A stretch of DNA of 64,000 nucleotides from Loxodes magnus. Taxonomy: Eukaryota; Ciliophora; Karyorelictea; Loxodida; Loxodidae. A model generated the notes under the pieces. That model did not search any database and had not been told where the DNA came from. It saw only the letters and a program-made list of their open reading frames with translations. The DNA lies in NCBI GenBank assembly GCA_946699065.1, contig CAMPDV010001554.1, positions 1 through 64,000 of the forward strand. Direction: 5' to 3'. The translations under genes and the position numbers were made by a program. Of this stretch, positions 10,684 to 45,445 are shown piece by piece; position 1 is the stretch's first letter; each line of letters begins with the position of its first letter.

Positions 10684-11720
10684 ATGTCAGGGTTCAAAAA
10701 AGGATTTTACGCGGCTCCCAAAAAGGCACGAGTTAACGACATACTAGAAAGGCTAGAACCAAGAAAAGGATACAAAAAAGATCACCTATCAGGATAAATT
10801 TCCCATATCTGAAGAAAAACCTAGGAAATAAGCTAAAAATCTAATGCGGAAATTTCGAATCTAATCACATAATAGTACATAAGCTACGATTAGTTGATTA
10901 AAGTGGCGCTGGACCTCCATGAAGAGGCCAAAAAGCCGAAGAAAGACAATAAGAAGTTAATGGAAAAACTTGAACTTGCAGAGGAAATAGAATCAAGAGT
11001 CATGACCTGAGAAAGAGACCTTAACGCATTTTGAAATATTTTGCAAGACCAGAACAATTAATCATAACACTAACAATAGAAGCAGAAAGAACTAGTCAAG
11101 AAAATAAAAGAAAATAAAAAAAATAAAAAACTAGAAGAAAATTGCAGCGTTAAATGGACCTAAAAGTATAGAAAAAATGCCCCAATGATTATCTAAGGAG
11201 AAACGAAATCAAGATTAAAACCTAAAAGAGAATCAAAAAGATGCTATTAAAGTAACTCTTGAATGCATCTATGGAAAAGATGCTAGAAATTTCAAAAGTT
11301 TAAATAAGAATACTGAAACTACTAGAAGAAGTTGGAAAATAGAAAGAAGATACAATTAAAACTAAAAAGAGAATGATTATATTGCAATATTTTTGGAAAA
11401 ATATGCAAGATTAAAGATACTCTATAGTCGAATGGATACCTCAGTGATTTTATATAGCAAGGATAATAGTTATAGAAGCATTTAAACATTTATATTTAGA
11501 CTCTAAAGTAATCTAGAGATTGGCGGGAAAGAGGATGAAATACCTCCAAGAACGCCAAACATTTAATTTTTTATTTGTAAAATTTTCAGTTAAATACAAC
11601 GGCCAAAGGCCGCTTAAAAAATTGACAAAATCACATTTGGGTAGATTCAAAACACGGTAATCTTTAGTAAAAGGCGAAAGATTAAAGCGTTATGCTATGA
11701 ATCTTGTGATATGTTAATTA
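10684..11720 (+). CDS. KGF/ADxA family coiled-coil ORF, copy 3
   Basis: The plus-strand ORF starts MSGFKKGFYAAPKKARV at 10684, sharing the KKGF start with copies at 20.0 kb and 13.3 kb. A long charged coiled-coil region (LDLHEEAKKPKKDNKKL, EEIESRVMTWERDLNAFW with TGA as Trp) follows. From about 11260 the better reading is in another frame (MEKMLEISKVQIRILKLL, YSIVEW), which aligns with VVEW in the 40-kb copy. One frame change therefore lies near 11150-11260. The ORF ends around a perfect GC hairpin CGGCCAAAGGCCG at 11600-11612. Function unknown. Confidence 0.5.
11600..11612. other. Perfect GC hairpin at the 3' end of a family unit
   Basis: CGGCC AAA GGCCG is a 5-bp perfect stem with a 3-nt loop in otherwise AT-rich DNA. 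Comparable small GC hairpins lie at the 3' ends of other copies (19018-19027, 24147-24159). Confidence 0.5.
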
Positions 11721-11729
11721 AAACTCTTT

Positions 11730-12450
11730 AAATTTAAGTCTCTTTCTTTTTATTTTCTTAAGGTTTCTTGAACATTAATAAATAGGATAGTTAATATTAG
11801 CTAATCATATCTCTATTAATAAAGTCTTGCTTAAAAACTAATTCCCCTTTTTTTCTTAATTTACATATATGCTTTTAATAAGTATTTAATAAAATATATT
11901 CAGCTATTTATTATATAATTCGAGTTCTCACATATTGCCTTAGTAGATACTTCATTAATTTCACTTCAAACTAACTTAAACCTAAATTAATCTAATTTTA
12001 GATAAGCATAGAAAGAGTTTTTTAGCTTCTCTTAAAAAATTAATAATATAAAGATTCTAGTTAAATCAATCTTGATTGCTAGTATAATAAAGTTTAGTAC
12101 CTTTATCTCAGACATCCGTGGTTTGCATATCTTCAACAGAAGCATTCTTAACATAGGAATCTATTTCTTTAGGATGAAATTATTTCTTAATCCATATAAA
12201 CTATTAGTCACTTACATCTAGATTAAAAAGTTGATTAATAAAAATTACAGTTAGATATCTAAACTCATCGATAAAGATTTTTGAATATAAGTTTAAATTT
12301 AACTCTATGTTTAAGCAAAAAAATCTATATTTAGCATTAGCTTTAATTAAAAAATTAAATTAATTCCTAATTCCTTTATCTTAATTTTTTGTACAATGGA
12401 CAAACATTAATTTTCAAATTTATGATTTAAAACTTTCACTTTTAGACTTA
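11730..12450. other. No gene recognised
   Basis: AT-rich sequence with no motif-supported reading in either strand. Confidence 0.4.
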
Positions 12451-12451
12451 T

Positions 12452-12478
12452 TTATATTAAATTAAATTAAATTAAAAA
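12452..12478 (-). repeat. (TTAAA)n pentanucleotide tail
   Basis: Several copies of a TTAAA/AAATT pentamer directly follow the 3' end of the minus-strand ORF at 12490-13270. The same type of tail follows the intact minus-strand LINE at 45427-45475. This fits target-primed retroposition with a microsatellite 3' tail. Confidence 0.6.
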
Positions 12479-12489
12479 TTTTAAGGTTA

Positions 12490-13270
12490 ATGGAGTGTTC
12501 CCTTAAAAGATCCATAACCCTCTGTATTACCTTTTACAGGGTCTCGGACTCCCCGTGTCTCCACCCAAATTCACTTCGAGCTTTCCGAACGGTCTTAGAG
12601 TTATCTTCTTACGTCATAATTAACCATCCGAAGAAGGATAAAACATGGTCAATTAATTTCAAATCTTTTTTCTAATTCCTTATTTCCCTAGCATCTTCTT
12701 AAAAGATGATATTGACTGCCACATATGTAGCACTTTTTTTGAAGTATTTTTCTTAAGTCATGGGTTGTTCTTCTTTTATCATTGAATCTTGATTTTTTAT
12801 GGTTATTAGCTCTCTAATTTCTCTAACCTTTGCTTAATTTCTTTAACTTGCTAAAAGGCATTTCATATTTTTAAAAGTCTATTCCCATTTATTCATCTAG
12901 GTCTAACAATATCGCATTCTATTTCTTGATATCTGTTATTAATATCCTAATTTGTAACAAATTCAGTTTGTGGCTTCTCATCGTCCACATGATCTTATAA
13001 ATCTTGTTATAAACTGATAACATAATGCTCGAGATTCTCGACTTTATCAGTGTAGTCGAAAATAATCTCCACGAGTTATTCCTTTTCTAAATTAATTAAT
13101 TGATTAAATGTATGCCTCTTTTTGGATCTTTGGAGGTAGTTATTTTTCTTCTGATATTTAGGAATATTTTTCTTTTAAATCTTAGTTGGTGTTTGTTAAT
13201 TTTAGAAAGATTGATCAGTATTATTACGAGTAATCTTTTCGATAAGAAAACCTTTGTTCCAACTCTGCAT
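12490..13270 (-). CDS. KGF/ADxA family coiled-coil ORF, copy 4
   Basis: The minus-strand ORF from the ATG at 13270 reads MQSWNKGFLIEKITRN (family KGF start), then HTFNQLINLEKEQLVEII, YTDKVENLEHYVISL (coiled coil; matches TDKVEKLE in the copy at the window start), DINNRYQEIECDIVRPR and VKEIKQRLEKLESQQ. The C-terminal 150 bases are clearly GC-richer than the surroundings. A (TTAAA)n run follows the end. No enzyme motif is visible. The whole unit of roughly 0.8-0.9 kb looks like one mobile copy with the tail at its 3' end. Confidence 0.5.
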
Positions 13271-13309
13271 TTTTTTGTTTTAGACTTATTTATAATTAAT
13301 TAATTTTAA

Positions 13310-14320
13310 CTTCCTTTGCTTATACCTTAAGAAATAAGGTAAAATTAAACAAATATAACTAAAATTTTATGTTTAGAGTTTATTAAAAAATAATTTTTGT
13401 TGTTTTAATTTAGATTTTAATCCTTTTCTAGATTAAGTACAGATATAAAAATAGTTTTAGAGAACAAGGTTAATAACTTTAAATTTTGCATATTCTCTAA
13501 TGAAAAATATAAGCTGATTAAAATGTCACCCACTTCTACCTAAAACTACTATTAAGTTTGAGTTACAAAATATTTAAATTAAAAGGATTTTTGTTAATTA
13601 ATTATATACCGAAGTTTTCTTAGTTAACTGCTATTGATTTCTAAAATAATTTTAAAAAGAATGCTAAGACTTTAAATAAGATAAAGATATAAAGATTTTA
13701 GAGTCTAGTTACTATTAGTTATTTTATCATTTTATATGTATATTTACCACTAAAGTTTATTTAAATGTTTAGACTGATAAAGACTCTTCTGTAGCTTTTA
13801 ATTATTTATCTAATTGTTCATTTCTAGCTTTTACAACCATAAGCTAAATTCACTTTTTAATCTTATTTGTAAATTATACTCTTATGCATTCTTTACTTTC
13901 AAAACCATTCTTTTAAAAGTGGATTTGAAACAGTCGATACAGAGCTTTTTAAATTAAATATTTGGCATTTTACTATTAATTTCATTAAAGGCTGAGCTTT
14001 TATTATACAAATAATTACATTAAATGTTAATCAAACTAAGAATTTATTTCACCTAGAAGAGACAAAAGATACTTTAATATATGTAAAGCACTAAGTATTC
14101 AAAGAGCAAATTAAAAGCTTTAAAAAAGCTTTATAATTATAGCTGCCCAATGAATCACGTCAGCTACTCCAAATGGAGAGTCTGCTTATTAAAAAATATT
14201 ATTGAGTTTGAATAAAATGTTCCATTCTTCTTGAATAAGTCTAAATAAAAATTAATTATTAAATCATTGTCAATCAAACTTTCATACTGCTAGTGAGAGC
14301 CCTTGAGCGAATAAAGTTTG
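13310..14320. other. No gene recognised
   Basis: AT-rich spacer between two minus-strand repeat units; no motif-supported reading. Confidence 0.4.
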
Positions 14321-14329
14321 TCTCTTCTG

Positions 14330-15090
14330 AGCTTGTCCCACTCTTCCCCTTAATGGTATCTAGTACGAAATTACTCGCAATGCAGTATACACTACATCAG
14401 ATTACCTATTATTTCTCCTGAACCGCGACCGACATCCATTTTTATATAAAAATAATGAATATAGAGATTCTACTTTTCAATCAGAATTAATCACTGTAAG
14501 TTTTATTAATTTTGTTAAATATTCCATTTCAAATCTTCTTTATGATCACTCCCATTAAATGTATATCCTGATTTATTATGTTAATCCTTTTTATAAAGAT
14601 ATTTTGCTTCAGTAGAGTTCAATTCAAATCATACTTAAGTTTCTTCTTTGCTGAGCAAGAGTAAAGTCCTTCAAGATTTATCTCTCTTTGTACATTTTTC
14701 CTGTATAATAGTTCTTTTAGAGTGCAGTGTAAATTACCAAAAAAATTATCATAATTTTAAGTTTTCTTGTTATTGTTTTCGTTTTAAATATTAGCAGTAT
14801 CTTAATGCAGATCCAAATATCCTGCAATATCAGCATTTTTTAATCTCTTATATAAAAAAAAATTTCCGGCTGATTTTTAGGTTCTGCATCCACCAAATAA
14901 TTCAACGACATATTTTAAAGAAGTATACTTGTGGTAAGCTATACAAATTGTTTTAATTATTTTCTAATTATTCGATTCTTGTTTCTGTGAATTATTATTT
15001 GAAGCTTTTTATTCTTATGTGTAAGACATTAGGTATAGGATTTTTCCTTAAAGTTCTTACGCCCTTTAAAATAGTTCTTTTTCATAATAT
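14330..15090 (-). CDS. KGF/ADxA family coiled-coil ORF, copy 5
   Basis: The reverse complement aligns in DNA and protein with the plus-strand copy at about 39.95-40.55 kb. The core reads KRLKNADIAGYLDLHQDTAN followed by QNYDNF, against NVDIAGDLDLYQDTAD in the partner. The part near 14330-14440 is GC-richer. Frame changes occur after the core. It defines the ADxA motif together with the 40-kb copy. No function is recognised. Confidence 0.5.
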
Positions 15091-15385
15091 TGATTTTTAA
15101 AAGTATATTAGTTAATAGTAATTAGATTGGAAGTATGGTTTTAAAAGAGAGTTTTAGTAATAAATTTAGAATAATTTGATATAATAACTTAGATAAATAA
15201 ATGGTTATATTTATTTTGATTAAGTTAATCTATTTAAGAACTTAAACTAATTATTTATTTTATTATTGTTCCTTGAAAAGCTAAATCAGATTTTTTAGTT
15301 AGGATTTTTAAGTATTAAAGTACTTTAATTTTATATATTTTTAAATAATTTTTGTTTATAAAGACTCAATAATAGTAAATATAAG

Positions 15386-15460
15386 GCAGTTTGTCCGAGT
15401 CAAGGAGACAGACTTATCTGTTGCACACTAGTGCGCGTGGGTTGGAATCCCACAGGTGGC
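15386..15460 (+). tRNA. Class II (Ser/Leu-type) tRNA-like sequence, anticodon loop short; probable pseudogene
   Basis: An A-box-like TTGTCCGAGTC, an anticodon stem ACAGA/TCTGT, a variable-arm hairpin GCAC-ACTA-GTGC and a T-arm GTGGG-TTGGAAT-CCCAC are all present. The anticodon loop has only four bases (CTTA) instead of seven, the D-loop is short, and the acceptor stem pairs poorly. The V-arm identifies a class II tRNA. It is more likely a remnant than a functional gene. Confidence 0.55.
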
Positions 15461-15464
15461 ATTT

Positions 15465-17280
15465 TACTTATAACATCTTATGTTTGATTGATTAAAATAA
15501 AGATCTATTCAATAATAATAAAGATATTAGGCTATTATAATAAAAAGTCTAAAAATTGATTTATTTATATTTTTAGTTTCATTTAAGAAAATTTTAATTG
15601 TTCAAGTTATAAAGTTTCTTTATCTCTAATGTACTTATAATTATAGTAGCTTCATTATAATCTTAAGCACAGAAAACTTACAAATAGTAATTATTACTTT
15701 TAAATGATCTAACTAGCATAATAATTTGATTAAGACTCAATTTTTTAAAATTAATAGAGTCATAATTGTTATCTATAATTTTCAAACTAGGAATAACTTG
15801 ATAGAATGTTGTATCCTAGTTTAATTATAAGAATTAATAAAAACAATCTATATCTCCCCTCTTATAATCAATTCTTTTAAGCAAATCACATCTTCTATTT
15901 TTTCGATGCAATTTTGCTTTAAAATGCTGATTTATAAAATAAAGAAAAAGTTTTTGATCAAAATTAAAGATTAAGACTTCTGAATTTGAGTATGAGCCAG
16001 AGAAAAATATGAAAGTAAATGCTAGAAAATAGAAAATTTAAGAAGGAAGTTTCGTTAAAGCGACTAAACTATTAATATACTTTTAATCATTTAGAATTAT
16101 AATTAGAGCTATAAGTATAAAATATAAGGAAAATTTACTTATATATCAACTGATTTTCTTTTTTCGTTTAAACTTTATAAAAGCAAATTTAGTCTCATTC
16201 TTTGTAGTCTAATTAACCCTTCTATTTTCAACTTTCAGTAACTTAAATTAATAAAAATAAATTATAAAACCTTAAGATACATTTCAGAATTGATTGCTAG
16301 GAAGTAAAAAGATATAAGACTTTGCTTGTAAGGTAAAGTGTAAATGTTTTATTTCAGTTTGCTTGTAGTAGCAATATAGTAGAATAACTACAACTAATAT
16401 ATCTAGATATTGCTTGAATTAAATAAGCCAGATCTTAAGAATTAACTAAGTGAATGAAGTAAATATAAAAGAGCTATTCTTCTATCTAAATGTTCAATTA
16501 TTTATGGCATGCTTAATTTCTTTTTTGATAAGAGCTATTTTAATTAATTTTTTGCTTGCCCTTAAATTAACTATTTTGAACTAGTTTGCAATAAAGGTTA
16601 ATCTTACAAGAAATGACTGAAAAATAACTGTTTATTTGATAAATGAACCATAAGAGCTAGTATCTAATGAAGACGTTGAATAATTTTAAGATAGCTTACT
16701 ACTATTAAGCATTCAATCTCTAAATTATGAATAAAATGAAAATATTAAAGATATAGCATCTAAGAGTAAAAATAGATTATATTAGTATAAAAAATACTTA
16801 ATTGAGTAAACTAATTATAATATAAAAGCTTGTGGTTTGTGCAAAGGATTTATTAGTTTAGCTTCTAAAATAAACTATATCTCAGATACTTAGAAGAAGG
16901 CTATTTGGTTTAATTTATATTATAAAATTAATCAAAATAAGCTTATATATAAACAATAAATCACATATTAATATTATATCTAATGGAGACTCAAAACTAT
17001 CAAGTAAATTAAATTACCAAGTTAATAGTTAAACTTAATAAGCACATTAAAATAAATATGCTATACATCTTAGTTTGTAAAATACAAATATTATATAAAT
17101 ATCTAGAAATGCTATAAATAAAAACAATCAAAAGTATATTTCTAGAAACTAAATATAAATTACAATATAACTTATAATATAAATTATGCTGAAATAGAGC
17201 TTATTAAAGAATATTTGCACTTTATAATAAAAAACTTAATTTATAAAATAATTTAGTTTAAATTAACAGAATATTAAATC
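15465..17280. other. No gene recognised
   Basis: AT-rich DNA with many short AT words, similar in texture to 53.2-57.3 kb. No motif-supported reading. Confidence 0.45.
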
Positions 17281-17287
17281 TGTAAAA

Positions 17288-18655
17288 ATGAATGCCTTAT
17301 GATAGAAGCTAAAATCTAACCTTCCTCTGGAAAAAGAAGTAGAAGAATTCAGATAAGAAATAGGCTAATTTTGTGAGAAGGAAACGAATGGATTTTATAA
17401 AAAAAGGGAATATAACGAACCCCTCAAAAAAGGGTAACGAAGGTATATGTGGAAACACAAAAGATAAAATCCGATTTTTTGTTGTAATAAGTGCTCTCAG
17501 AATTATGAGTAGAAAAAAGCGCAAGGATAGCAATAGAATATCTAGTATTAGCAATAAATAAAAGCTTAAGAGTAGTAAAAAATTTCAAACGAAGAATTAT
17601 TAAATAATTTGAATATATAAGAAATTGAAGAATGAGATTATAATAAAGAAATTAAAATTGGCTAAGGAGGATATGGAAAAGTTTGAAAAGGAAATGAAAC
17701 AATCAAGAGGTAGCAATAAAAGAATTATTGAATCAAAATTTATGTGAAGAAACGTAAAAGGAATTTTATAAAGAAATACAAATAATGTAAGATCTAAATC
17801 ATAAAAACATAATAAAGTTTTATGGATTTTGTCGTTCTCCTTAATGCTTAATATTTGAGCTTGGTAAATGCTCCCTATTTGAACTTTTATAAAGTAACTA
17901 AGAAATTTCTTGAAATACAAGACTTTAAATTGCTTATGATATAGCTCGAGGACTTTAGTATCTTCATAATAAAAATATTCTGCATAGAGACCTGAAGAGT
18001 AAGAACATAATCTTGAATAATTTAAATAGAGCTATGCTTATTGATTTTGGACTTTCACGTGTAAAGAGTGAATCTAAATCCTTAAGTGACAAAAGTTAAG
18101 TAGGAACTACAAGTTGAATGGCTCCAGAGATATTAGAGAAAAATCCTAGATATAGCATATATTCAGATATTTTTGCATTAGGAATGGTATTTTGAGAAAT
18201 AGCTACAAAAAAGATTCCTTGGAAACAAACTCAAGAAAATGTAATTTTATTGCTTGTTAAGAATGGATAAAGAGAAGAAATTCCTAAGAATTGTCCATAT
18301 TGATTTTCGGACCTAATTTGTAAATGTTGGCATCAAAATCCAAAAGAGAGACCAAATATTGACAGGACTAATTGATTTAATAAATTTAAAAGAAAATGGC
18401 CAAGAAATTATTTTAAACAGCAATCAAGAAAAATAAAATTTAAGTTAGAACGAAAATTATCTTGAGATTATTCCTGAATAAACATTTCAAATTTAATAAT
18501 AGTCAAGTCAAGAATCGAAAAATTAAACTTTTTTAGCAAATTCTGGAAGCCAAAATTCTTGGGAACTTATTAACAACTTAGAATAAAACACTTTTAATTT
18601 TAACGATAATTTGAATAAATAGATATTTACTAAAAGTGTCTTTAAATAATTATAA
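17288..18655 (+). pseudogene. TKL-like protein kinase copy E with N-terminal Cys/His module, most complete copy
   Basis: From the ATG at 17288 one frame gives MNALWQKLKSNLPLEKEVEE, a Cys/His module (C29, H57, C65-C66-x2-C69), a Gln-rich linker and glycine loop G125-QGGYGKVWK. One base is missing just after this; the next frame carries EVAIKELLNQ, helix C, NIIKFYGF, HRDLKSKN (17993), IDFGLS (18043), SWMAPEILEKN, GMVFWEIATKK (Trp from TGA) and CKCWHQNPKERPNID. One extra base near 18362 precedes a third frame with an Asn/Gln-rich tail to about 18.65 kb. All catalytic motifs survive, so the two frame breaks are either recent inactivation or assembly error. The predicted kinase would be Ser/Thr or dual-specific and cytosolic (no membrane segment seen). 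Confidence 0.7.
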
Positions 18656-18982
18656 TTATTCTTTAAATACATTTTGTTTTTTCTTTCTATCATACTATTT
18701 ACTTATTTAAGCTTTTATTTATATAATATCTACTTTATTAACTGTAAATATTCGATTTATCTTCTCTTAATTTGTTTTGCTTAACTACAATATTTTTGCT
18801 TCTTAGATATATATAAAATTTCTAACTTTAGTAATAACTTTAATATTTTTATCTTTTATGCTATATTCTTATTTTTTTAACTTTTGCAAACATTAATATC
18901 TCTCTTAGAATTTCATTTTTCTTTTTAATATTTACTTATTTTCAAATTAATAGACAAATTAAGCAATAATTTAGAAAAAAAG

Positions 18983-20031
18983 GAGAAATTAATCATTAAT
19001 CATTAAAATAGCTGTTCGCCTTCCGGCTTAATTAAAATTTTAAATGTATAAAATCTCCATTCCATCATGTTTGTTCCTTGAATTACTCTTTTTCCTTGAC
19101 TTCTCTCTTTTGAATAGGCTGAGTTGAGAATTTTTTATTCAGATTTTCCCATTTCCCGATGGGAAAAATTCCGTCGCTCGTTACTTCATATACTATTAGT
19201 TAACATTTTTCCAGATATTCATTATTATTTTTTCTATTAGGGACATTTCCGCCATAAATATCAAGTGTTGTTACTAATGTAGCATCTTTTTTTTGCTCTA
19301 AGAAATGTCTTTTCTTTCTCTATTTCCATTGGAGTTCCTTATGAAGGCTTCTACAGGTTTTTTTATGTTAATTTGGGTCTTGAATCTAATTTCACTCAGT
19401 TTTTCTCGGTCTTTATCTTGCATTACTCAAATATCATTCTCTAAACTTGCAATTTGCTCATAAACTCCGATTTTAGCTCTTCATTCAACCATATGGGCTT
19501 CATCAGCATCTTTATGATTTATCAAATCCTGACTTATTATAATAATTTAATTCCTCTTCGAGTTTTTTATGCTTTAATAAGTTGGTGAATCAACTGTTTC
19601 ATCTTCTCAGATTCCATTTGTTCTTTTCAGTATTGTCTAAATCAAAGGTAATAGGATCTATATGAATTATCGTACTTTACCTTCTTCGTTTATTTTTATT
19701 TTTCGTTATCATTTTATCAATTCAATTGAGCTGTCTCTTTTTTCAGTTTTCAATGGTGTTGAGAGGTATGTTAACTTTTCTGTTCTGAATTTAAATCTCA
19801 GTTCTTAATCGTCCTTTGATGGAAGAGATTCGCTTTATTTTAATTTGTAGGAGTTAGAATTTTTTATAAGTTCTTCTAATCTATTAGATAGTTCTGGCTA
19901 ATTTTATTAAGAAGAGCGTTAAGGTTGAAGAAAACGTGGTGAGAATAAGTGCTTCTGGTTTTCTTTTTTGTTCTGAGAAGGTGGTATAAAACCCTTCTTT
20001 AAGCCAGGTATTTTATAAAAAATAGAGAAAT
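18983..20031 (-). mobile_element. TSD-flanked 1.03-kb single-ORF element of the KGF/ADxA family
   Basis: The right arm of the inverted duplication contains a 1035-bp segment absent from the left arm. It is bounded by GAGAAAT at 18983-18989 and 20025-20031, while the empty site in the left arm has this heptamer once. On the minus strand the ORF begins within about 30 bases of one end (LKKGF), and the other end carries two copies of a TGATTAA-type repeat like a short retroposon tail. This is the cleanest full unit of the family in the window. Transposition was probably by a LINE in trans. Confidence 0.7.
19010..20015 (-). CDS. KGF/ADxA family coiled-coil ORF inside the TSD-flanked element
   Basis: Minus-strand reading: GLKKGFIPPSQNKKENQ near 20000, LEELIKNSNSYKLKQ, DDQELRFKFRTEKLTYL, SSIELIKWQRKIKINEEG (Trp from TGA), AHMVEWRAKIGVYEQIA and LENDIWVMQDKDREKL. 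The composition is charged and heptad-like, so a coiled coil is likely. No ATG was found at the exact element end, so the start is uncertain. The 3' end has a GC-rich inverted motif GCC-TTCC-GGC at 19018-19027. No enzyme motif; possible RNA-binding ORF1-like role is inference only. Confidence 0.5.
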
Positions 20032-20160
20032 AAAGATGAGAATATAACAAAAGTAATTGAGAAATGATGATATTAAGATGATATTTAAATAACATTTACT
20101 ATTGTCCTATAATTGAAAGAACCAATCCTTGCAAATAAAGGTGTTAAAAGTTCTTTTATT
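20025..20160 (+). repeat. Shared retroelement 3'-end sequence, copy 2
   Basis: Reverse-complement partner of 1865-1995 within the inverted duplication; carries 'caatccttgcaaataaagg'. Confidence 0.6.
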
Positions 20161-20879
20161 TTAAAATTTTAATTAAATTTTTTATTTATTTTTATGTTAA
20201 AAACTCTTTTTATTAAGGTTTAGAATGTCATGATCCCTATTAAATAAAAAACAATTTAATATTATTTTATAATTTTTTCTATTTTTAAGTCTTTTATCAA
20301 CTTCTTATACTAGAAAATATATTAAAGAGTAGGTTAAAAGATTTAGTTAATAATTTAAAACATTTAAGCTACTTTTCTTACAAATTAAATTTTATAAATA
20401 AGTTAATTTTATTGTTCTAATTTAAAAATATTTCATTTACTTTACTCATTTTAATATATTATTAATCTAAAATAATATCCTTTAAAAGAAATCAAAGACT
20501 GTAATTTAGTTTTAAAGTAATTTACTTCTTAAATATTATGCTTTATTTTAAATTTTAATCTCTATAAATTAAAATAAGGTAAGATATTTTAATTTTAATC
20601 TTAAATATTAAACAATTAAAATGCTTAATCTGTTTCAATGCACATAGCATGATTATTTAAAATTAATTAAATATATAAAAATTATTTATGAAGCATTTTT
20701 TTATTTAATATAAATAAAATGGGTTTCTAAGAAATAAATCACTAAAAACTAGCAGGACATCAATTAGAAAAATCTCTCTCATTGAAATTACTCTTTAGAA
20801 ACAGAAAGCAAAAGATGTAGCAGTATCTCTAAGACTTAAATTAACAAATGATTTTCTAACTTAAACTATAAAATTAATT

Positions 20880-23290: not shown

Positions 23291-23329
23291 ATGCTTAGAA
23301 TGGAAAAAAAAATTTCTTATTCTTTATAA

Positions 23330-24170
23330 TGATGCTCTTCTATAACATAGTGACTTGAGCATATTAATCTTTCTTGATTACAAGAATCTTATTCCAGTCC
23401 CAGCTTGTCCCTAGCATTAATCTTGTCTTTCTCTTTTACGCGATTGCAATTTCTTAGAGTAAGTAATCTCCATCATAAAATTTTTTTCTGAAAATTTTCC
23501 ATCCTAAGTACAGTAAATTTTACTTAGATTTTTCATTTTTTTTCTTTTTCCTAATCTTATTTCTTTTAAGAGACCAACATTTTAATGATATTTGTCCCAA
23601 CTTTTAGCAATGTCAACATCTTATTCTATATTTTCTTTAAATATTACCTATTTTTTTACAATATCAAAATTTAATTGTACTATATTGTATCTTTTAAGAA
23701 TTCTCCATCTTCTCATCTTTGATATTCATCAAGTCATTTTGAGGATTAAGAAGGGATTAATTATTAACTTTATCGTTTTTTAATTTATCAATTTTTGTTC
23801 CGTCTCTTCAATCGTTTAATTAAACTGGATTATTGAGAGATTCAATTAAATTTCAGTTTTAATCTATAAGTTTTCATTTTTGGCTAAGAAACAGTATTAG
23901 CTAGCTAGTTTATTTTTAAGCTAAGTTCTTCAACAGATTCTTTCACCTTTTTGTTTTCTTCTGTCCAAATCAATTTCAAGGAGCATTTCTTATTGTTAGG
24001 TTAGCTAATAGATTTAAGAGACTTTTTTAGAGCAATTTTAAAATTTATTAAAACCTAAAATAAGAATCGAAACTAAAAAAAGATTAAAATTAAAAAAATT
24101 AGAATAGTAGCTAAATTAAATAAATTAAAATATAAGCCTTAATTACGTCTCAGGGAGACAACCAAATTCA
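23330..24170 (-). CDS. KGF/ADxA family coiled-coil ORF, copy 6
   Basis: The minus strand carries VDIAKSWDKYHQNVGLL (family core) near 23610, then FRKKFYDGDYLLQEIAIA and KTRLMLGTSWDWNK, which align with YYSEKMYKRSQILKDITLA and RNLNMIGIKLDRK in the 40-kb copy. Upstream (23.7-24.0 kb) is a charged, Gln-rich stretch including EENKKVKESVEELSLK. The DNA identity to other copies is low, but the protein pattern is kept, which supports past selection on the protein. Boundaries are approximate. A GC hairpin GTCTCAGGGAGAC is at 24147-24159. Confidence 0.45.
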
Positions 24171-25017: not shown

Positions 25018-25129
25018 TTTATATATAATAAACAATTATTAAAAGAATCAATGGATATCAAAGAAATATATTTATGGTCTCTGAAGCAAGTGATTAATAA
25101 AAAATTTTAAATCTAAAAAAATTCTGATT

Positions 25130-35480: not shown

Positions 35481-35489
35481 ATTGACTAA

Positions 35490-36000
35490 AACTTTTTAAT
35501 TTAATTTAGAAAATACATTAAATTATTTATTTTTATTTCAGCCTTTTTATCAAAATTAAATTCTAAAAATGTTAAATTTTATTCTACAAAAAATGGCTGG
35601 AAAAATAAAATAATTTATAATTAATCAATTAATAATGAAGGAAATTTTAAAATTCATTTTATATTAAATTATTTAAAAAAAATTATTAAGATGGTAATAA
35701 TGAAGATATAATGCTGAATTGAACATATTTTGATTTAAAAAATATTTTAGATTTAAAAGCACACATAAATTAAGAAAAAAATGTATAAGTAAAGAAAAAT
35801 AAATGAAATTAAATAATTTTTCAAAAATTAAAAAAGTTAAAAATTCTTCAGTGAATTAAATAAAAAAATTCTGTTAAATTAATATTTTATTTAAAAATTA
35901 AAAAGTATAAATTTAAATTAATTACCGCAAAAAAAATTAAATCATTAATTTAAAAATTTTAATTAAAAGAATGAAGGAAGTAAAATTTTGAAATGTATGA
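35490..36000. other. No gene recognised
   Basis: AT-rich sequence without motif-supported reading. Confidence 0.4.
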
Positions 36001-36003
36001 TTA

Positions 36004-36237
36004 TACCTCCAATCCTTAAGGAGATAACTGATTAAATCCAAAATCTTTAAGGGAAAGCATCTAAGATTATCTGGCTTTAGTAGAGGTTTTAAGTCTATGA
36101 CGTTGGATTATATATTCGATACACATGAGGATCCCTACTTGCAGAAAATGATAAATAGAATATCCCTGTCATATTAGTAAAGAGGTCATTCAGAGTTTGC
36201 ACCAGGGCTATATATTTAAGCTGTATTAAAACTCTGA
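36004..36237 (+). CDS. Hypothetical protein segment ending at TGA
   Basis: A GC-richer island reads LQSLRRQLIKSKIFKGKH, LRLSGFSRGFKSMTLDYIF, DTHEDPYLQKMINRISLS and RGHSEFAPGLYIQAVLKL followed by TGA at 36235-36237. Residue use is balanced and unlike random AT-rich DNA. No ATG precedes it in frame nearby, so it is either a last exon or a gene fragment. I do not recognise it. An inverted pair CAGAGTTT/AAACTCTG overlaps its end (36191-36236). Confidence 0.35.
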
Positions 36238-36244
36238 CAGTTAA

Positions 36245-37550
36245 TAAATAATGAAGTAATATAAAAATATAAATGAGTAATTTTTTAAATATGATTTATA
36301 TAAATAAAATGTCTGGTTTATTTAAACTAATCTATTATACAAGTGATTTATAAAATTTTGAAAAAGAAAGGAACTAAATGAGTGAATATATTTAACTGAT
36401 ATTAACTTTACATATTTTATAAATTATTTTGTATACATTTTGATATTATTTATCTTTTTTATTTATTAGCATTCCTTAGATGATCTGTATGCAACACGAT
36501 TTATTATTTAAAGATAGATTTGTATTTAATTATAATTAAAGTTATTTATCATAAAAATGTATATATTTAATCAATATTACCAAGTCCCTTGTTAGTGCGA
36601 AACTCAATATTAATATTAAAAAAAGTGTTCTCATGCTTCTTGTATATATTTCAATAAGATAAAGACTAAAAATAATATGATTTATATTTAAAAAATGATT
36701 AAATAATAAATTAAAAAGGAAAATAATAAATTATATTAACTAATTTTAAATGCTTAAAAGTAAATCACTATTCATTAAGCTTTTTAAACATTTTATGAAT
36801 AAGAATCAATTTATAAATTAATGCAATTTTAAGTTTTCTAAAAATCAACTAAAATTTAAAATAGCAAGCTTTAATTTTAAAAAATAAATAGTCAAATTAT
36901 TATTTGTTTGATAATCTTTAAGAAATTTAAAAATTTAAATAAAAAGCTTTTAAACCTATTAATCATCTAGCAATATTAAAAAAGGCTAAGCCTCAAAATT
37001 CTGGTAATATTTTTAAAATATTAGATAAATTTAATTTAAACTAAATAACTAGTTTTAGTTATTTATTAAGTTATATAAAAGCAAATTAACTTTATTATTT
37101 CCTATAAATGCAAAGATAAACTGAAATACAAACATAAAATAAATATAAAGCATCTAATTTATACTGCTATATTATAAATATTATATCTATTTTTATATTC
37201 TATAGTTGCTTTAGAAAACTAATATTTTAATTTTATTTAAATGCCAAATTAACATTTATTTACTTAACTATTTCATATGTTATGAATATCAAATCCCAAG
37301 TATTTAAAATGTATTCAATTATTAATTTAAAAATTACTCTATCAATTATTTTAATTAACTCATTTCAAATTATTTTAGTTAATTAAAAAAATTAACAAAA
37401 TCTAAATAAGTAATCAAAAATTATTTAAACTATTTATTAGAAATTTTGCTTATTAATTAACTTCAAATTTCATCATTTATGTATAAACTATAATAATCAT
37501 TAAAAAACCTCCTACCATCATTAATACAATCACCACGATTAATCTTTAAA
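36245..37550. other. No gene recognised
   Basis: AT-rich spacer; no motif-supported reading. Confidence 0.45.
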
Positions 37551-37559
37551 AAATTATTT

Positions 37560-37990
37560 TGAACTTCCTTGAATATTTCCTGTCATAAATCTTGATTATC
37601 TTAAAGTTACTTTTCTAGATTTATTCCTATACGTCAAATTTCAATCATTTTCTTTTGGATTCGTTAATTGCCCATTAGATATAGAAATTTTCTTTTTTGT
37701 TTTAGTATTTATTCCTGTAAAATAAACCTTCTTAATTGCAATAAATCTTAATATATTTTATTATTCATTTATTTTTTCTCTTTTTTCATCTAAATTGGTA
37801 ACAACTTTGCATTCTATATCCAGTTGCTTGCAATATCAGCATATCGTTACTCTTCAATAGGGAATATATTTTTATAGGTAAATGTTCTATTTCCATTGAG
37901 TAGTTTAGTATTTAGGATTGTTCTTGCTTACTACTTCTAGTATCTTAAATCTCTTACTAACAGTTCTGTTTATGAAATTGACTGCAATGA
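37560..37990 (-). CDS. KGF/ADxA family ORF C-terminal part, copy 9
   Basis: The minus strand reads RYADIASNWIQNAKLLP (family core) near 37840, then YRNKYQNKKENFYIQ and NESKRKWLKFDVQEQI, aligning with the copy at 24.4-25.0 kb. Further upstream (38.0-38.35 kb) the sequence becomes simple TA-rich repeats. No start was identified. Conservation of the protein pattern despite DNA divergence is the main evidence. Confidence 0.4.
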
Positions 37991-38389
37991 TTAATTTGGA
38001 GGAAGTTGGTTTCTATATAGTTGATTTTTGAATTTGCATATAGTTGATTATTAAGTTGGTGATTTAAAAATGAGTAATAGGTTTGATAATAGTTAATTTT
38101 GATACTATAGGTTGATGATAGGTTAAGTTGATATTGTGGTGTATTATTTGTGGTATTTGAATAATAATAAAGTAATTTAGTGAATTAGGCTTATTTATTA
38201 GATACATTTTAAATAAGCACTTTAATTTGTAATTATAAATGTATATAACTAAATGCTAATAGTATTAATAGTAGTAACTAATTAGTTTTTAGTTTATTAA
38301 CTAAATTAGATTAGTCTAAGAATGTAAAATAATTTAAATATAATAAATTTATTATTATTATTATTATTTTAACTAAATGTAAAATTAAA

Positions 38390-39205
38390 GTTTGCATATC
38401 CTGGGTTTTCAACCAGGTTTCTGCTTACAAGTTTTTTTCCGTGGTTGTTCTCCACGACCTTTTTTTAAAGTGGACGGCTACCACGAAGGATTCTCTTAGT
38501 TTCTTGTTCATAGTTTCCATTTATATATGCCTTACTCAGTAATCCAAAGTTTGTTTAAGTTTCTTCAGGTCCTTTATTCTTCATTGTAGTTGAGTTATCT
38601 TAATTTCTTACAATGTCTTAGTAAATGATACCAAGATTAGCAGTACCAACAATTTTTATATCGTTTTTCTAATTTCTATTTTTAAAAAACTTTTTTCTTC
38701 AGCATCTCAATTCTTTTGTTTATGTTTGTATCATTTTTTTCTTAATTTTACTTTTCTTAATGTTGTATTTTGTGCTAATCTTCTTCTATGATCATTCTTT
38801 GTGATTAATTGAAGTTAGTTTACGACATTTCATAAAGTTAATTTTATGTTACTACTGAGTTTTTAATCAGTTAACTTTTGAGAATTAGCAGTTCGTTATT
38901 TTAGTCTTCTATGTATTCCTTTTTTGCTTTTTCCATTTCTAATAATTCTAGTCTTCTTAACATCATTTTCTGGTGAAATATTTTCATTTATAAATCTAAA
39001 TATCCCAAATAAGACTTTGGAAAGTATTTTATAAGTCCTTAATCATATAATATAAGGCGTCTTAAGTCATAATTCCCAATCTTTTAGGATAGTCAATCAT
39101 TATATTATAATAATATATATTTAAAAATGTGCTCGAATGTATCATGCTCTTCCCACATACAGTAGGGATTATAAATAGGATAGTGTCGATCTTAAAGATC
39201 TTTTT
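38390..39205 (-). mobile_element. LINE 3' fragment running in frame into a coiled-coil ORF
   Basis: From 39205 downward the minus strand encodes DLQDRHYPIYNPYCM, HDTFEHIFK, NYDLRRLILYDQ and LRRLELLEMEKAKKEYIED, aligning with the C-terminal end of the LINE at 45.5 kb, but the knuckle has lost Cys residues. Where that LINE stops at TGA TGA, this copy continues in the same frame (NNELLILKSQLIKNSVV, NKRIEMLKKKVF), then, in another frame, ANLGIIYQDIV, SKAYINGNYEQETKRIL and VENNHGKKLVSRNLVE. It is 5' truncated near 39205. The extension resembles the KGF/ADxA family ORFs. Confidence 0.55.
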
Positions 39206-39273
39206 GATTTTCTATAAAATAATAATAAAATACAAATCTATTATTAAAAATGGAATTAAGCATCAAGGCCTCA

Positions 39274-40590
39274 ATGGATCGTACAAACTAAGAATTGGAA
39301 AGAATGGAGCAAAAAATAAAAGAAATTAATAATCATAATAATTCTTAGTAACTTCTTTTCCTTCACAATGATCCTATGGTCATAGAATAACAGAAATCTA
39401 AAAATTTTTCGAATCAAAAACATTAAAAAATGATATAAATGTCGAAAAATAGGTACGATTCAAAATACTGCAAGATAAGACGCTTCAACTGTTTTAAGAT
39501 GAGATATATAAATAGAAATTACAGATTATTCTAAAATATGAAATTATGGAAAAAAATTACCGAATTGTACTGTACTGTAAACAGGAAAGTATTCAGAAGT
39601 AACTATATAATGGAAATTAGCTTCTAGAAGGAATTGCTAATACTTAAGAGAGAAGGACTAGATCAATTTTTGGAAAAACTGAAACTGGAGCATTATTCCA
39701 ATCGAAAAGAAGAGATAAGTCGCAACAATTAGATTTTTAATTAAAGAAATAAGCTCTGAAGAAGAAAATACTGAAATAATTATTAAAAACATTTAGGTTA
39801 ATCAAGAAAAACCAAATAAAGGTAGATAATACGCTAATCAATTATTTTTATAATATAAAATAATGGAAATAATTTCTTGCAAAAATTCTCTTTGAAAAGG
39901 ATCCATCCAACCTAATTATAATTAGCAAAGTATGCTTTAAAAAACAAAATTATGCAATAGGAAAATTATAAACTTTTAAGAGGTGTAAGAACTTAAAGAA
40001 AAAATCACATACCTGATGTCTAGCGCATAAGAATAAAGAGCTGAAAATAAGTATTCAGCAAAAATCATAATTAAATAACTAGAAAAAAAATTAAACTAAT
40101 CTCAGAGCTTACTAAAAGTATATTCCTTTAAAATATGTCGTTGAATGATTTGATGGATGTAGAGCCTAAAGATCAACCGGAAAACAATTCCTATATAAGA
40201 GATTAAAAAATGTTGATATTGCAGGAGATTTGGACCTGTATTAAGATACTGCTGATATTACAACCAAAAATAGCAACAAAATTTAAAATTATGATAATCT
40301 TTTAGTAATATACACTGCACTCCAAAAGAACTATTATTCAGAAAAAATGTACAAAAGAAGTTAAATCTTGAAGGACATTACTCTTGCTCGGCAAAGAAGA
40401 AACTTAAATATGATTGGAATTAAGCTTGACAGAAAGCTTGATACCTTAAAATAAAAGGATTAACGTAAGACACCGCGATATATATTGAATGAAAATGATT
40501 TTAAAAAACTTGAAATAGAATATTTAGCAAAGCTAATAAACTTTACAGTGATTAATCTGATTGATAGGTAGAATCACTATAATAAATTAT
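39274..40590 (+). CDS. KGF/ADxA family coiled-coil ORF, copy 10
   Basis: The plus strand from an ATG at 39274 begins MDRTNQELERMEQKIKEIN, a coiled-coil start. The conserved part is at 40130-40560: QYVVEWFDGCRAQRS, KRLKNVDIAGDLDLYQDTAD, YYSEKMYKRSQILKDITLA and RNLNMIGIKLDRKLD, ending IEYLAKLINF. It aligns with the inverted copy at 14.33-15.09 kb at DNA level and with the 23.3-kb copy at protein level. The N-terminal and core blocks are not in one frame, so the copy is broken or spliced. Function unknown. Confidence 0.45.
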
Positions 40591-40860
40591 TATTATTATT
40601 ATTTATTATTTTTTAAATAAAAAATAAGAATAAATAGAATAATTTAAAATTAATACTTATTAAGAGTATTATCTTCTCTCAAAATAGTATAACTTTTAAA
40701 TTAAAATATTTAAATTAGCATTTCATCAAATAAAGTGAATAGCAAAGTTTATTTTTTAATTATAAAGAAATATTATCTTTTTATTCTGCTTTAGATATCA
40801 TTTTTAAGTAGATTGCATTAAAAGCACTCTTGTTATAGAAGCCACAACAACTAAATAAGG

Positions 40861-41290
40861 ATGTGCTTTTCATGTGATAAGCCTTATTTATTTAAGGGTT
40901 CTCTCTATCGGTACGAGAATCTGACTAAAAAGCTCTTAAGTTTAGGTCATAGAGTTATTTTGCTTTTACATGTCATTAAACTGGTCGGGAATTGGAAAAA
41001 ACCTAAAGAAAAAACTGAGATCAGAAATAGTTTTTATTTAGAAAAATTTAACTAAACTGGGGCATTTAACACTAGTATCGAATTATCCTCTAACTCTTAC
41101 CTTTGGACTAAATAATAAGAAACTAGAGAAAGAAGGTAATCAGTTTTGATTTGAAAAACGGAGAAAAGAAGAAAATAAGAATAAAGATACCAGGTGAAGC
41201 TAGAACATTACTAGACTTTTATAAGAATAAAAATTGGTTTCTTTTATTAATAGTGGTGAATTTAATAAAGGGGGATCCACGGTAAGTAAT
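40861..41290 (+). CDS. Hypothetical ORF, possible beta-propeller fragment
   Basis: The ATG at 40861 gives MCFSCDKPYLFKGSLYRY and continues to about 41055. In another frame, 41130-41280 reads KKVISFDLKNGEKKKIRIK, IPGEARTLLDFYKNKNW and FLL, a strand pattern that recalls kelch-like propellers ('FDLKNG...W'). A GTAAGT at 41281 could be an intron donor. The two blocks are not in one frame. The locus shares its downstream 200-bp repeat with the kelch locus at 21.5 kb, which weakly supports paralogy. Low confidence. Confidence 0.3.
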
Positions 41291-41859
41291 TAATTTATAT
41301 AAATTTTGAATTTTTAAATTATTAACCTTATAAAAATAATTTCTATTTAGATATTAAATTTTCATTAAGAATCTCATAAAAGTTACATATTTTAATTCAT
41401 TTAAATGAAATAAACTTTCCGAAATATTTTTGATTTTAAAGAAATTTTATATTTAGAAAATAAAGAAAATGATATGAAGAAATAATTGAATAATCAATAA
41501 AAATTAATTAGGATACCTCATAATTACTTTTTAAGTCTAAAATTTAGTCTTTGTTTTTTATTTGAAATCAATATTTCTGATATTTTTAGTATTTGTCATT
41601 TAATAATTTTATTTATATGATTTGTTATATATTTTATAGAAGTATTATTTTACATAAATGTAAATATTTTTTATGTTTAAGATTTTTAATATTTAACTAA
41701 CAGTTTTTTAATAAAAAGCCTTTTTTTAATTTCTTCTTTTATATTTAGTAAACTACACTAAAATTTAAAGCATATGATAAAAATAAAAATAACTAAATAC
41801 TTTTATTTTCGTATTTTATTAATATAAAAACAGGATTTAACCTCTTCTAAAACCCTTAG

Positions 41860-42460
41860 ATGAGCAACCTTAAATATGAATTATGAAAAAGAAATATAGC
41901 AAATAATCTCGAAAAATAATACCCAAAATCTTAAGTCTCTGAATTAAAAGAATAAATTAGGTTTCCGTTATTAACTGCAGTAAAGATATATTAAGAAAAT
42001 AGCTAATTAAAAAAATAATTAAGCAACAAATAGGAAAAAGAAGAAATAAATTTTCAGCTATAGAAATAGAAGAAAGAATCAACTAGTTTACTGCACATTA
42101 ATAGTTACCAATTTAGAAAAACTAAAACAACATTGACCCTAAAATATTGAGAAAGAATAAAAATTTAATTATACATATAAAGAAATATATTAAGACATTG
42201 ATTCTGCAAGAGGAAATAACATCTAGTGAGATATTACTTATACTCTAGGATTAAGTGAAGAATAGGAGAAAATAGTATTTTAAGAAAACTGAATCTATTT
42301 CATTGCCCTCTAGAAGGTTAAATCGATATTTTATCAAGGAATGGAACTTCATGAATCAATAACGGAAGCGAGCAATAAATTGATAAAGAAAATACAATAA
42401 GGAACTACAGGACATATAGAATTAAGAGGGGAAGAAGGATTTACCTTTAAAATAAGATGA
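41860..42460 (+). CDS. Hypothetical coiled-coil protein
   Basis: From the ATG at 41860: MSNLKYELWKRNIANNLEK, a coiled-coil stretch with KEQIRFPLLTAVKIYQENS, then, after a frame change near 42090, TNLEKLKQHWPQNIEKEQK, KEIYQDIDSARGNNIQWD, ITYTLGLSEEQEKIVFQ, MELHESITEASNKLIKKI and GHIELRGEEGFTFKIR followed by TGA at 42458. The second block has balanced residue use and is probably truly coding. The frame change may be a tiny intron or a mutation. I do not recognise a domain. Confidence 0.4.
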
Positions 42461-42627
42461 ATACTGAGCTAAAGACTAAGAATAATTAAAATTTTATGAA
42501 GAATTTCAAAGGAAAAAGAAAACATTTTATAGGAAGAAATATAATTGAATTTAAAATGTTTTATTTAGTAATGGTGGGTCCATTATAATTAATTATTATT
42601 GAGCATAATATTTTAAATAGGTTGGTG

Positions 42628-42850
42628 TAATCTTTAACTGAGTATGACTTAAATTTAAGGACTAGAAATTACTTTATGGTGAAGAACCGAACAAGAATCT
42701 TGGTAGGAGTCAAGAGAAGACAAGACTGAAGAAGCATCAAGTAACGCTATTGATGAAAAATGCCAGATACTTAGTCTCTTAAGAAGCATTTTGATCACGA
42801 CCTATATAAGACAAGATTCATAAGTGAATGCTAGCACTGTGGAAGACTTC
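42628..42850. repeat. About 200-bp dispersed repeat, copy 2 (SINE-like or structured RNA candidate)
   Basis: Aligns with 23095-23290: 'gaaccgaacaagaatcttgg', 'aggagtcaagaga', 'caagactgaa', 'catcaagtaacgct', 'aatgccagatact'. It lies downstream of the unrecognised ORF at 41.9-42.5 kb, as copy 1 lies downstream of the kelch gene. Confidence 0.55.
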
Positions 42851-42899
42851 AACAAAGAATTTTTTTAACTTTAAAAATCTTTATTAAAGAGCTGAGTGT

Positions 42900-44200
42900 C
42901 ATTGAGACGTTAAGTATTCTATAATTATATTTATAATTTATTATTATTATTTATAAGTATAAATATTTTATTTTCTTAATATTTTTATAGTTTGAATAAC
43001 CTAAATATATTAATATTTTGCTTTAGTATAATTTTTAAATTTAATTATGATATTTTAACTAAATGCAAGTTTTATTTATATATTAATAAAATAAATTTAA
43101 ATAAACAATTTTTCATACTAAATGAAGAACATTAAAATTTCATATTTGGAGATTAGTTACTCTTGAATAAAGCGATTGATTAAGAAGAATAACAACGAGA
43201 AGTTTTTAAATAACTTTAATATTGCAAATGCTTACAGGAAAGGAATTTAAATTTATAAAAAACTCTAAAGTTCTTAACTATTGATATAAACAAATACGTT
43301 AATCATTTATTTCAATTATTGTTATATTTTTTATATCACTCATCCTAATTGTTCAGTAATAAAATATACATGTAAACTTTATTCCGAAAAAATTTGTTAG
43401 AATCTTTTTCAGAATCTTCAATTAATAAAGGGAATTTATTTTCATTAAGTTTGAATCTGTGAATTACTTTTAAAATATCTATCTGATATAATAACTTTAT
43501 TATCTAATAGATTTTACGTTTAAAAATATTTTAATTTTACGTGAATAAAAACATTTGAGATTTAAAAAAATAATATAGTTCAAAGAATGTTCTTAATCAA
43601 AAAGAATTGATTTACCATTTGTTTATTGCAATTAAATTGATATCTTTGAAATAAAAAATAACATAATTACTTTATTTTAAATTTATTTATTTCTATATTA
43701 TTATTTGCTTATTCATTTACTTTAATAGAAGAGTTAGAATTTTTTTAAATATTTAAAAATATTTCATTTACTAAACTAAAATTAGAAAAAAAAGTATCAA
43801 AATTAAAAAAATTAAAAAAAGGCATTAAAAATAAAAGTACGTAAATTCTAAATAATTTAATATTTAAAATTTATTTAAATCTTTTTAAATAAAATAAAAA
43901 TTTAAACAAAAAGGCTAAAAATATCAGCAATATCATTTTCAAATAAAAAAATTACTAAATTTTAGAATTATAAAATAGATATAATTATATTAACTAGTTT
44001 TTATCGATAATTCAATTATATTTCTCATCATTTTCTTTATTTTAAAAAATATTACATTTTTTTATTTCAAATTTTAAAATATTTTGGAAAAATTATCTTC
44101 ATCTAAATAAATTGAAATACTTAACTTATTTATGTGATTATTAATGAAAATTTAATATTTTAAATTATTTTATACTGCTTAATCATTTAAAATTCCATAT
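42900..44200. other. No gene recognised
   Basis: AT-rich spacer; no motif-supported reading. Confidence 0.45.
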
Positions 44201-44204
44201 TTAT

Positions 44205-45445
44205 ATAATAGTAATAAAATATTAAAGTGACGACACCTTTTATTAGGATGCCAATAATTAGAGTTTTTAAAAGGTTATTATCCTCATTAGGTTTCATAGA
44301 TGAATTCTTCTGAATTCTCTGGGTCATAAATTCTTATTATTTCCTAAATTTTTCATTTAGCTAAGGATTGGAAATAAAAACTGTACTATCATTTCCCAGA
44401 TTTTCTTAGTGATTCCATAATCTTTGGTCTTTCTAAATATGAACTAAAATTTTTTCTCTAATTAGTCTTCCGTTTGGTATGCAGTAATTCCTAAATAATT
44501 TGTAAATATCTCTTTCTATTTTTAAGTCTTACTTTGATTAAAGTATGTTGCAATTTCTTTTCTTGTGTCCATATTTTTTGCAGTGTCATCATTCAAGCTT
44601 TCTTTTATATGTAAAGACTGAAGAAGAATTCTGTTTTTCTCTTAACTCTGAATTAGTTAATTCTCTGATAAAAGTTTTTTTATTCTCCTTTCAATAGTAT
44701 TTAATTAAGATTCCATATATTAGAAGAGACTAATAGTAAATTTTTATTTAGGTTCTATTCATTGATCAACTTGTTGATAGTTATCATAAAAGATTAAGTT
44801 TTTTATTTTAAATCTTAAACTTCTTTTTTTAGTTCTAATTGTCCAATTTTAGCATGAAGAAATAATTACTTAAGTCTTGCTAATTATTAGGTTTTGTAGG
44901 AGAGATTAGTTATTCCTTAGGAGCATTTTATTTTATAATTAATAATAAAATTTAAATTAAAAAAAGGATATTCTAAAGAAGAGAGAAAAGGTTTAGTCGC
45001 TTAATAACTTATAAATAAAACTTTTAAAGAATTTATTTTATGAAATGTTAATTTAAATAGATTCATTATAAGTTATAACTATTTTGAGAGAAGATAATAC
45101 TCTTAATAAGCATTAATTTTAAATTTTTCTATTTATTATTATTTTTATTTAAATATAAGTAATCTTAAAAATGTTATATAAATCATTTTTATTATTTAAT
45201 TAATTTTAAATTATCATGTTATGTGCATTCAAACTGATTAACCATTTTAATAATATTTAAGATAAAAATATTAAATATCTTGATTTATTTTCATTTATAG
45301 AGATTAAAATTTAAATAAAGTATAATATTTAAGAAGTAAATTACTTTAAAACTAAAATACAGTCTTTAAATTATTTTAAAGGATATTAAATTTAGATTAA
45401 TAATGTATTAAAGTGAGTAAAGTGAATGAAAGATTTTTAAATTAA
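44205..45445. repeat. About 1.2-kb dispersed repeat, copy 2
   Basis: Same orientation and nearly the same sequence as 372-1610, with scattered substitutions. It abuts the 3' tail of the minus-strand LINE, so the LINE inserted at or next to its edge. Confidence 0.85.
44240..44926 (-). CDS. KGF/ADxA family coiled-coil ORF, copy 11
   Basis: Minus-strand ORF from the ATG at 44926, nearly identical to the copy at 400-1088, including the ADxA core region (near 44590) and the tail with DSTILISNPQLDEKFRK-type sequence. Same apparent frame change after the core as in the partner, which suggests that the change predates the duplication or that a tiny intron exists there. Confidence 0.45.

Follow-up and report, generated by a model that had tools for sequence, protein, structure and literature searches.

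The closest described system is HAL1, which is reported to have arisen from L1 on several occasions and to be non-autonomous, with ORF1p as its sole encoded protein (PMC5753468). ORF1p is described in two layouts, type I joining an RNA recognition motif (RRM) to CCHC and type II joining a coiled coil, an RRM and a C-terminal domain (CTD) (PMC4120745). For the ciliate Loxodes magnus, the main text on the macronuclear assembly lists 757 k unclassified repeat copies and at least two complete families of long interspersed nuclear elements (LINEs) (PMC11441545). Here we analyse the window, bases 1-64000 of L. magnus contig CAMPDV010001554.1 (C1554), within a searched genome of 705,730,643 bases in 7,843 contigs, and the repeats A, B, C and E that it carries. 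Our reading, to which we give a probability of about 0.75, is that this karyorelict ciliate carries them as non-autonomous retroposons that depend on LINEs, each encoding one protein with a likely coil and CCHC and no reverse transcriptase. We found no published account of such elements in the open-licence PMC literature or in the main text of PMC11441545, where a word search (supplements lying outside it) returned none of CCHC, zinc, ORF1, SINE (short interspersed nuclear element) or nonautonomous.

Target-site duplications (TSDs), together with 3' hairpins and tails made of microsatellites, speak for retroposition of the LINE type. In both A and C, only a few bases separate the 5' end from the start of the open reading frame (ORF). 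The sequence suggests a protein laid out like an ORF1p or nucleocapsid protein, which opens with [KN]-[KP]-GF and continues through a long stretch of likely coiled coil and an M-x-IE linker to a CCHC zinc knuckle. The A protein is under purifying selection in one frame, strongest at the knuckle.

A first-pass annotation of this DNA had instead described a protein family with an ADxA core and no known motif. All five of the core strings that it listed are present (at 755 -, 14837 -, 23620 -, 37846 - and 40209 +), yet each overlaps C-W-[YH]-C one frame over when TGA is read as Trp. For example, AA TGT TGA TAT TGC AGG gives K-C-W-Y-C-R and the neighbouring frame, AAT GTT GAT ATT GCA GGA, gives N-V-D-I-A-G; TGT-TGA-TAT-TGC gives the opening half of a CCHC zinc knuckle (Cys-Trp-Tyr-Cys), and it becomes VDIA when shifted by one frame. 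The ADxA family is therefore rejected, the string being an out-of-frame image of a motif that, judged from sequence, is a CCHC zinc knuckle. The annotation missed the knuckle because it took TGA as a stop, and its view of a protein free of known motifs was wrong. Its C-terminal RKWL[RK]F block was not found in any of the six frames with either the standard or the ciliate code, TGA being a stop in both. The strict pattern C-x2-C-x4-H-x4-C occurs at three window sites (753 -, 12732 - and 38651 -) and at none in 20 Markov simulations. A loose knuckle pattern occurs at ten sites, where the simulations average 2.6 and never exceed 6, and four of the ten (732 +, 11084 -, 32247 + and 46148 +) are unlike knuckles.

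The karyorelict code is expected to read TAA and TAG as Gln and TGA as Trp. A WD40-repeat gene at 60.2-63 kb (+) carries TAA and TAG at Gln positions and TGA at conserved Trp positions; inside genes these codons have the reassigned meanings. By eye, this gene (60217-63000, +) opens with a RING-like segment followed by pentapeptide-like and WD40 repeats. Element A appears to obey the host's ambiguous code, with TGA both as Trp (codons 118 and 209) and as stop. The G+C content of the window is 16-33% in 2-kb steps. Long open frames are no evidence by themselves, because a base shuffle of the window gives ten longest TGA-only frames of 311-583 codons.

A, B and C are well-supported elements of the window, and E is a probable fourth. 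Their features are as follows.

10679..11577, +, element A, window copy: ATG at 10684, TGA at 11536-11538, likely coiled coil, degenerate knuckle, hairpin and short (TTTGTA)-type tail
10664..10674, +, 5' TSD of A: TAAAATTTCAG
11578..11589, +, 3' TSD of A: TAAAATTTTCAG, one base longer than the 5' TSD
18989..20009, -, element B: PGLKKGF start, PMEIE, degenerate knuckle CYISNNTWYLWRKC at 19284-19243, (ATGATTA)n tail of two units, frames broken
20010..20031, -, 5' TSD of B, imperfect
18969..18989, -, 3' TSD of B, imperfect, with one base in common with the tail
12457..13277, -, element C: ATG at 13270, coil with TDKVENLE, knuckle CYICGSQYHLLRRC at 12732-12691, (TTTAA)n tail
13278..13294, -, 5' TSD of C, exact 17 nt
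12440..12456, -, 3' TSD of C, exact 17 nt
38520..38921, -, element E (part, probable): MIIEE, coil-like stretch, knuckle CWYCQSWYHLLRHC at 38651-38610 (W encoded by TGG), boundary taken from genome matches

The GF start that the annotation had noticed stands in all three well-supported elements, as MSGFKKGF at 10684 + (A), PGLKKGF at 20009 - (B) and MQSWNKGF at 13270 - (C), and 10684 is the true start codon of A. Copies lie on both strands, as had been claimed, and TDKVExLE is found at 13051 - (in the coding frame of C) and at 126 -.

The window copy of A is open for 284 codons from 10684 to the family's TGA at 11536-11538. Two indels shift about codons 15-53 off the family frame, which is restored through the coil and knuckle. 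The knuckle (11242-11283) retains the first Cys, the His and the last Cys, with Ser in place of the second Cys; the hairpin region lies at about 11500-11518, and the TSD pair is imperfect. A protein search of the genome from 10672-11400 + listed at least 152 matches, with 150 of 13,662 loose candidates scored, a total that is not a copy number. We collected 37 copies, distinct over a 200-nt tag, each matching at least 700 bp of one 911-bp unit, some of which are segmental duplicates of a single insertion. Eight 8-kb loci have about 930 bp in common around A and elsewhere only scattered other repeats, except for the duplicates L036 and L038. The unit starts a few bases 5' of the ATG, and its 3' end carries a hairpin and a tail of (TTTGTA)n. 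In the best copy (L052) the ORF has 288 codons and its TGA stop lies about 45 nt short of the 3' end; TGA occupies the stop position in 30 of the 37 copies. With L037 as reference, which is one base short near codon 251, codon 118 is TGA in 31 of 36 copies and codon 209 in 34 of 36; on the same reference the knuckle ligands are kept as Cys in 33, Cys in 27, His in 34 and Cys in 27 of 37 copies. Against L052, 16 of the 37 (itself included) align in one frame over at least 274 of 288 codons; a count of copies free of any frameshifting indel against L037 gives 1 of 37 and is too strict. Flanks of A were grouped by hand from 35 rows into 26 insertion sites. At nine of these the flanks carry an exact repeat of 11 nt or longer, a length that 1.4% of mismatched flank pairs reach. 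At L037, A splits a LINE into two parts with an overlap of 5 nt. At L034, a LINE reading frame lies on the same strand about 1.6 kb 3' of A, which is bounded there by its own tail and unit length.

The start codon of B in the window copy is ATA. B has an empty site at 1995-2018, within a copy of its host repeat (1304-3338) that lacks B. The window copy of C carries indels relative to a second copy (L072), which has a 27-nt flank repeat; in family C all 150 scored candidates match, among 1,231 candidates, and most list no TGA. TSDs, tails and empty sites support the earlier proposal that the carrier is a retroposon, probably one needing a LINE.

In the case of E, a LINE ORF2 end at 38883-39206 (-) runs in frame into the knuckle protein, possibly as a fused reading frame. 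The LINE-similar stretch covers residues 1-108 of the E query. Most scored matches (140 of 150) begin at residues 77-111, mostly near residue 96, and so overlap the LINE part by about 13 residues; the other ten lie on contigs of the segmental-duplicate set to which this locus belongs (see below). No TSD was found for E. Given this and the unclean boundary, E is probable and not proven.

The families of A, B and C have in common the [KN]-[KP]-GF start, likely coiled coil, M-x-IE and knuckle. A and C match by profile comparison (E 1.6e-9), and the knuckle modules of A, B, C, L046 and L058 align mutually at z 5.9-13.6 (200 shuffles each). E aligns to these five modules at z 2.6-8.8 and to L068 at z 11.3. 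As far as sequence comparison can show, the A, B and C families are homologous and the repeat-borne protein superfamily is real.

To describe selection, we used pooled Nei-Gojobori ratios of nonsynonymous to synonymous change (dN/dS) with a codon bootstrap, referred to L052, comparing 6 copies of A with 29 others and leaving out L019 and the duplicate L007. Note that four of the six copies in the smaller group are segmental copies of the window insertion. The coding frame had a between-subfamily dN/dS of 0.37 (0.29-0.48), compared with 0.82 and 0.81 for the remaining two frames. By region, the coding frame gave 0.37 at the start, 0.30 in the coil, 0.39 in the linker and 0.14 (0.05-0.35) at the knuckle, followed by 0.22 over the next 35 codons and 0.87 over the last 37; regional values in the other frames ranged from 0.43 to 1.73 with wide intervals. 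For C, two copies were compared that are 96.5% identical and separated by few changes; the coding frame gave 0.46, the other two frames 0.77 and 3.11. The annotation's proposal that a repeat-borne, likely coiled-coil protein was selected during spread is thus borne out by the Ka/Ks comparison that it had suggested. It had also reported no sign of reverse transcriptase, transposase or nuclease, in agreement with our Pfam scans of A and C, which gave no reverse transcriptase, endonuclease, nuclease or transposase family.

The window also carries a LINE copy whose family has numerous near-identical reverse transcriptases.

45445..49930, -, LINE copy: endonuclease, reverse transcriptase, (TTTAA)n tail; may extend further 5'

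This LINE is young: 119 scored copies of its reverse transcriptase, the window's included, stand at 90-93% identity (window copy 93%) in a table that scores stops as mismatches. The tail units are (TTTGTA)n in A, (ATGATTA)n in B and (TTTAA)n in C, the last of which is also found on the young LINE, and its family is a candidate driver of C. The 3' ends fold better than shuffled sequences in A (z -4.8), C (z -3.1) and the LINE (z -4.1).

A 3' end shared between A and the LINEs examined here was also sought and is rejected, as blastn with the last 110 nt of A returned only short matches outside A copies (E at least 0.028). LINE families seem to end in short repeats of their own, as in the (TTTAA)n that follows a hairpin at 45445-45545 (-); by eye, an (AAGAT)n-like run stands near a LINE end at the left end of L034. 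Separately, the window LINE at 48977-49930 (-) is without four stretches (242, 246, 244 and 225 nt) that are present in L071, and the gap junctions show short overlaps and no GT-AG.

Further units in the window are decayed.

14401..15110, -, D1: decayed unit with NADIAGYLDL, knuckle-frame image KCWYC at 14835
39936..40596, +, D2: second D copy, NVDIAGDLDL, knuckle-frame image at 40211
23547..23648, -, F: knuckle-like RCWHCQKLGQISLKC beneath DVDIAKSWD
44197..45474, -, G: 95% identical to 360-1642, knuckle CWHCKKYRHKKRNC at 753 (-), degenerate at 44591 (-)

Additional decayed knuckle-like units were seen by eye at 28.57k + and 37.84k -. Distant relatives of D were found from both the first-queried frame and the knuckle frame, and its dN/dS (eight sequences, mostly segmental duplicates) was 0.61 in the first-queried frame, 0.56 in the knuckle frame and 1.04 in the third. 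G, D and F show few links above z 5, so that their kinship, judged from sequence, appears weak or indirect. The claim of about a dozen copies of one family thus holds for A, B and C, and probably for E, and is not sustained for the rest.

A U5 spliceosomal RNA gene (11599-11711, -) lies immediately 3' of element A and has 16 genome matches, nine of them at 98-100% identity. The locus (about 10.6-15.1k and 38-41k) is part of a set of diverged segmental duplicates that includes C214, C1030, C1251, C2686, C2782 and C1554:79-84k and 107-109k; two U5 copies are opposite in orientation on C1030 and on C1251, and two have the same orientation on C1554. A tRNA match at 53138-53204 (-) was given by Rfam at 37.7 bits and is absent from ARAGORN output.

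Several results weigh against our reading of A, B, C and E. No knuckle model reached the Pfam zf-CCHC cut-off in scans of ten short knuckle peptides, and Pfam knuckle models, the top matches for four of the ten, stayed below it (E 0.03-0.08). Scans of full-length proteins returned no knuckle and only names at chance level, the best being Peptidase_U49 (E 0.008, in 3 of 20 members). With Pfam scores below cut-off, the knuckle assignment rests on spacing, conservation and homology across families. The AlphaFold2 model is weak (pLDDT 67, pTM 0.20) and draws a helix through the knuckle. Frameshifts are frequent among A copies, and the last 37 codons of A are without protein constraint. At the knuckle, frame 2 has a dN/dS of 0.52 (0.28-1.12), and some regional contrasts overlap. 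Within the main A subfamily, the coding frame gave 0.51 against 0.67 and 0.73, and its coil, at 0.64, was no lower than frame 1 (0.53), which indicates that much of this divergence is neutral decay, as expected for drifting dead copies. In a run with all copies on the L037 reference, one antisense frame gave 0.55 against 0.42 in the coding frame. In L072 the last in-frame TGA, a possible stop of C, lies roughly 160 nt before the tail. Finally, the tail likeness between C and its LINE concerns a short AT-rich unit, and no LINE with an A or B tail was found among the few LINE families seen.

The rival that survives best, unlikely as we consider it, makes the elements plain deletion derivatives of autonomous Loxodes LINEs that carry this ORF1, true half-LINEs with no role beyond that of the parental ORF1. 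Mammalian HAL1 is exactly of that kind (PMC5753468), and the end of a LINE ORF2 precedes E in the same frame, with the overlap of about 13 residues given above. However, the ORF1 region of the young LINE, its far 5' end not being covered, contains no strict knuckle and does not resemble the A profile (E 0.68, probability 0.1%), and the scored E matches start in their great majority near the E boundary, not at the start of the LINE part.

It is much less probable that the repeats are processed pseudogenes, left when LINEs copied a host gene for a zinc-knuckle protein. An ORF that begins at the 5' end and the presence of TSDs would suit such an origin, but there are several diverged families, every one multi-copy, selection is visible between copied subfamilies, and the tails are family-specific microsatellites and not poly(A).

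Slighter still is the case for non-coding, SINE-like repeats with chance open frames. The reading of TAA and TAG as Gln makes long frames easy, as the shuffled window demonstrates, and the dN/dS contrasts within subfamilies are modest. This explanation is already disfavoured, since dN/dS between subfamilies is frame-specific and lowest at the knuckle, and protein homology extends across families that differ in tails and 3' ends. Gag-only remnants of long terminal repeat (LTR) retrotransposons are equally improbable: Gag likewise fits a coiled coil with CCHC, but within the window no direct repeat of at least 60 nt flanks A, B or C, TSD length varies from about 11 to 27 nt, and the tails are microsatellites.

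If the elements are LINE-dependent retroposons, a LINE would supply endonuclease and reverse transcriptase in trans, and its machinery would recognise the 3' hairpin and tail of the element. The element's own protein would multimerise through its coil, bind element RNA and chaperone target-primed reverse transcription, with its own RNA preferred; such a preference would explain why the ORF is kept under selection. The RNA chaperone role already suggested by the annotation fits a coiled coil with a knuckle, as far as these can be predicted. We also offer, at slightly less than even odds, a broader proposition: that an old and large superfamily keeps a selected nucleocapsid-like protein and swaps LINE partners, as three tails would suggest, and that the protein may not derive from the ORF1 of its drivers.

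To our knowledge, most non-autonomous retroposons encode nothing. A family that keeps a packaging protein alone lets the effect of ORF1p on its own RNA be asked apart from endonuclease and reverse transcriptase, and bears on why selection can act on a parasite's protein in systems that work in trans. The elements may put a name to some of the many Loxodes repeats that are unclassified. They also offer a natural test of the ambiguous TGA code, because the element needs TGA as both Trp and stop, and they illustrate that, under a reassigned code, a motif already known can pass for a new one (ADxA in place of a knuckle).

Compared with known systems, the elements differ from LTR elements with Gag in having no LTR-like flanking repeat of at least 60 nt and TSDs of variable length. 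They resemble LINE-mobilised SINEs in being non-autonomous, in their TSDs and 3' hairpin and, for C, in bearing a LINE's tail unit; unlike SINEs, which are non-coding, they encode a protein that dN/dS reveals as selected. With LINE ORF1p they share standard parts, the coiled coil of type II and the CCHC of type I (both as described in PMC4120745), which are here combined, in a unit without endonuclease or reverse transcriptase. The fold of L1 ORF1p (coiled coil, RRM and CTD) was not recovered: full-length Pfam scans gave no match to a LINE ORF1 family, a profile search of the PDB returned a single match (E 0.65), and the AlphaFold2 model, with low-confidence helices only, supports only an unstructured start and long helices. 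The elements are further set apart from HAL1 by a likely coiled coil with CCHC and no RRM or CTD detected, by a lack of detected similarity to the covered ORF1 region of the local young LINE, by units of about 0.8-1.0 kb with microsatellite tails, and by a ciliate host in which TGA is both Trp and stop. What they have in common with HAL1 is an ORF1-type protein alone, a probable dependence on LINEs, and TSDs with a 3' tail, and by analogy they may work much as HAL1 does.

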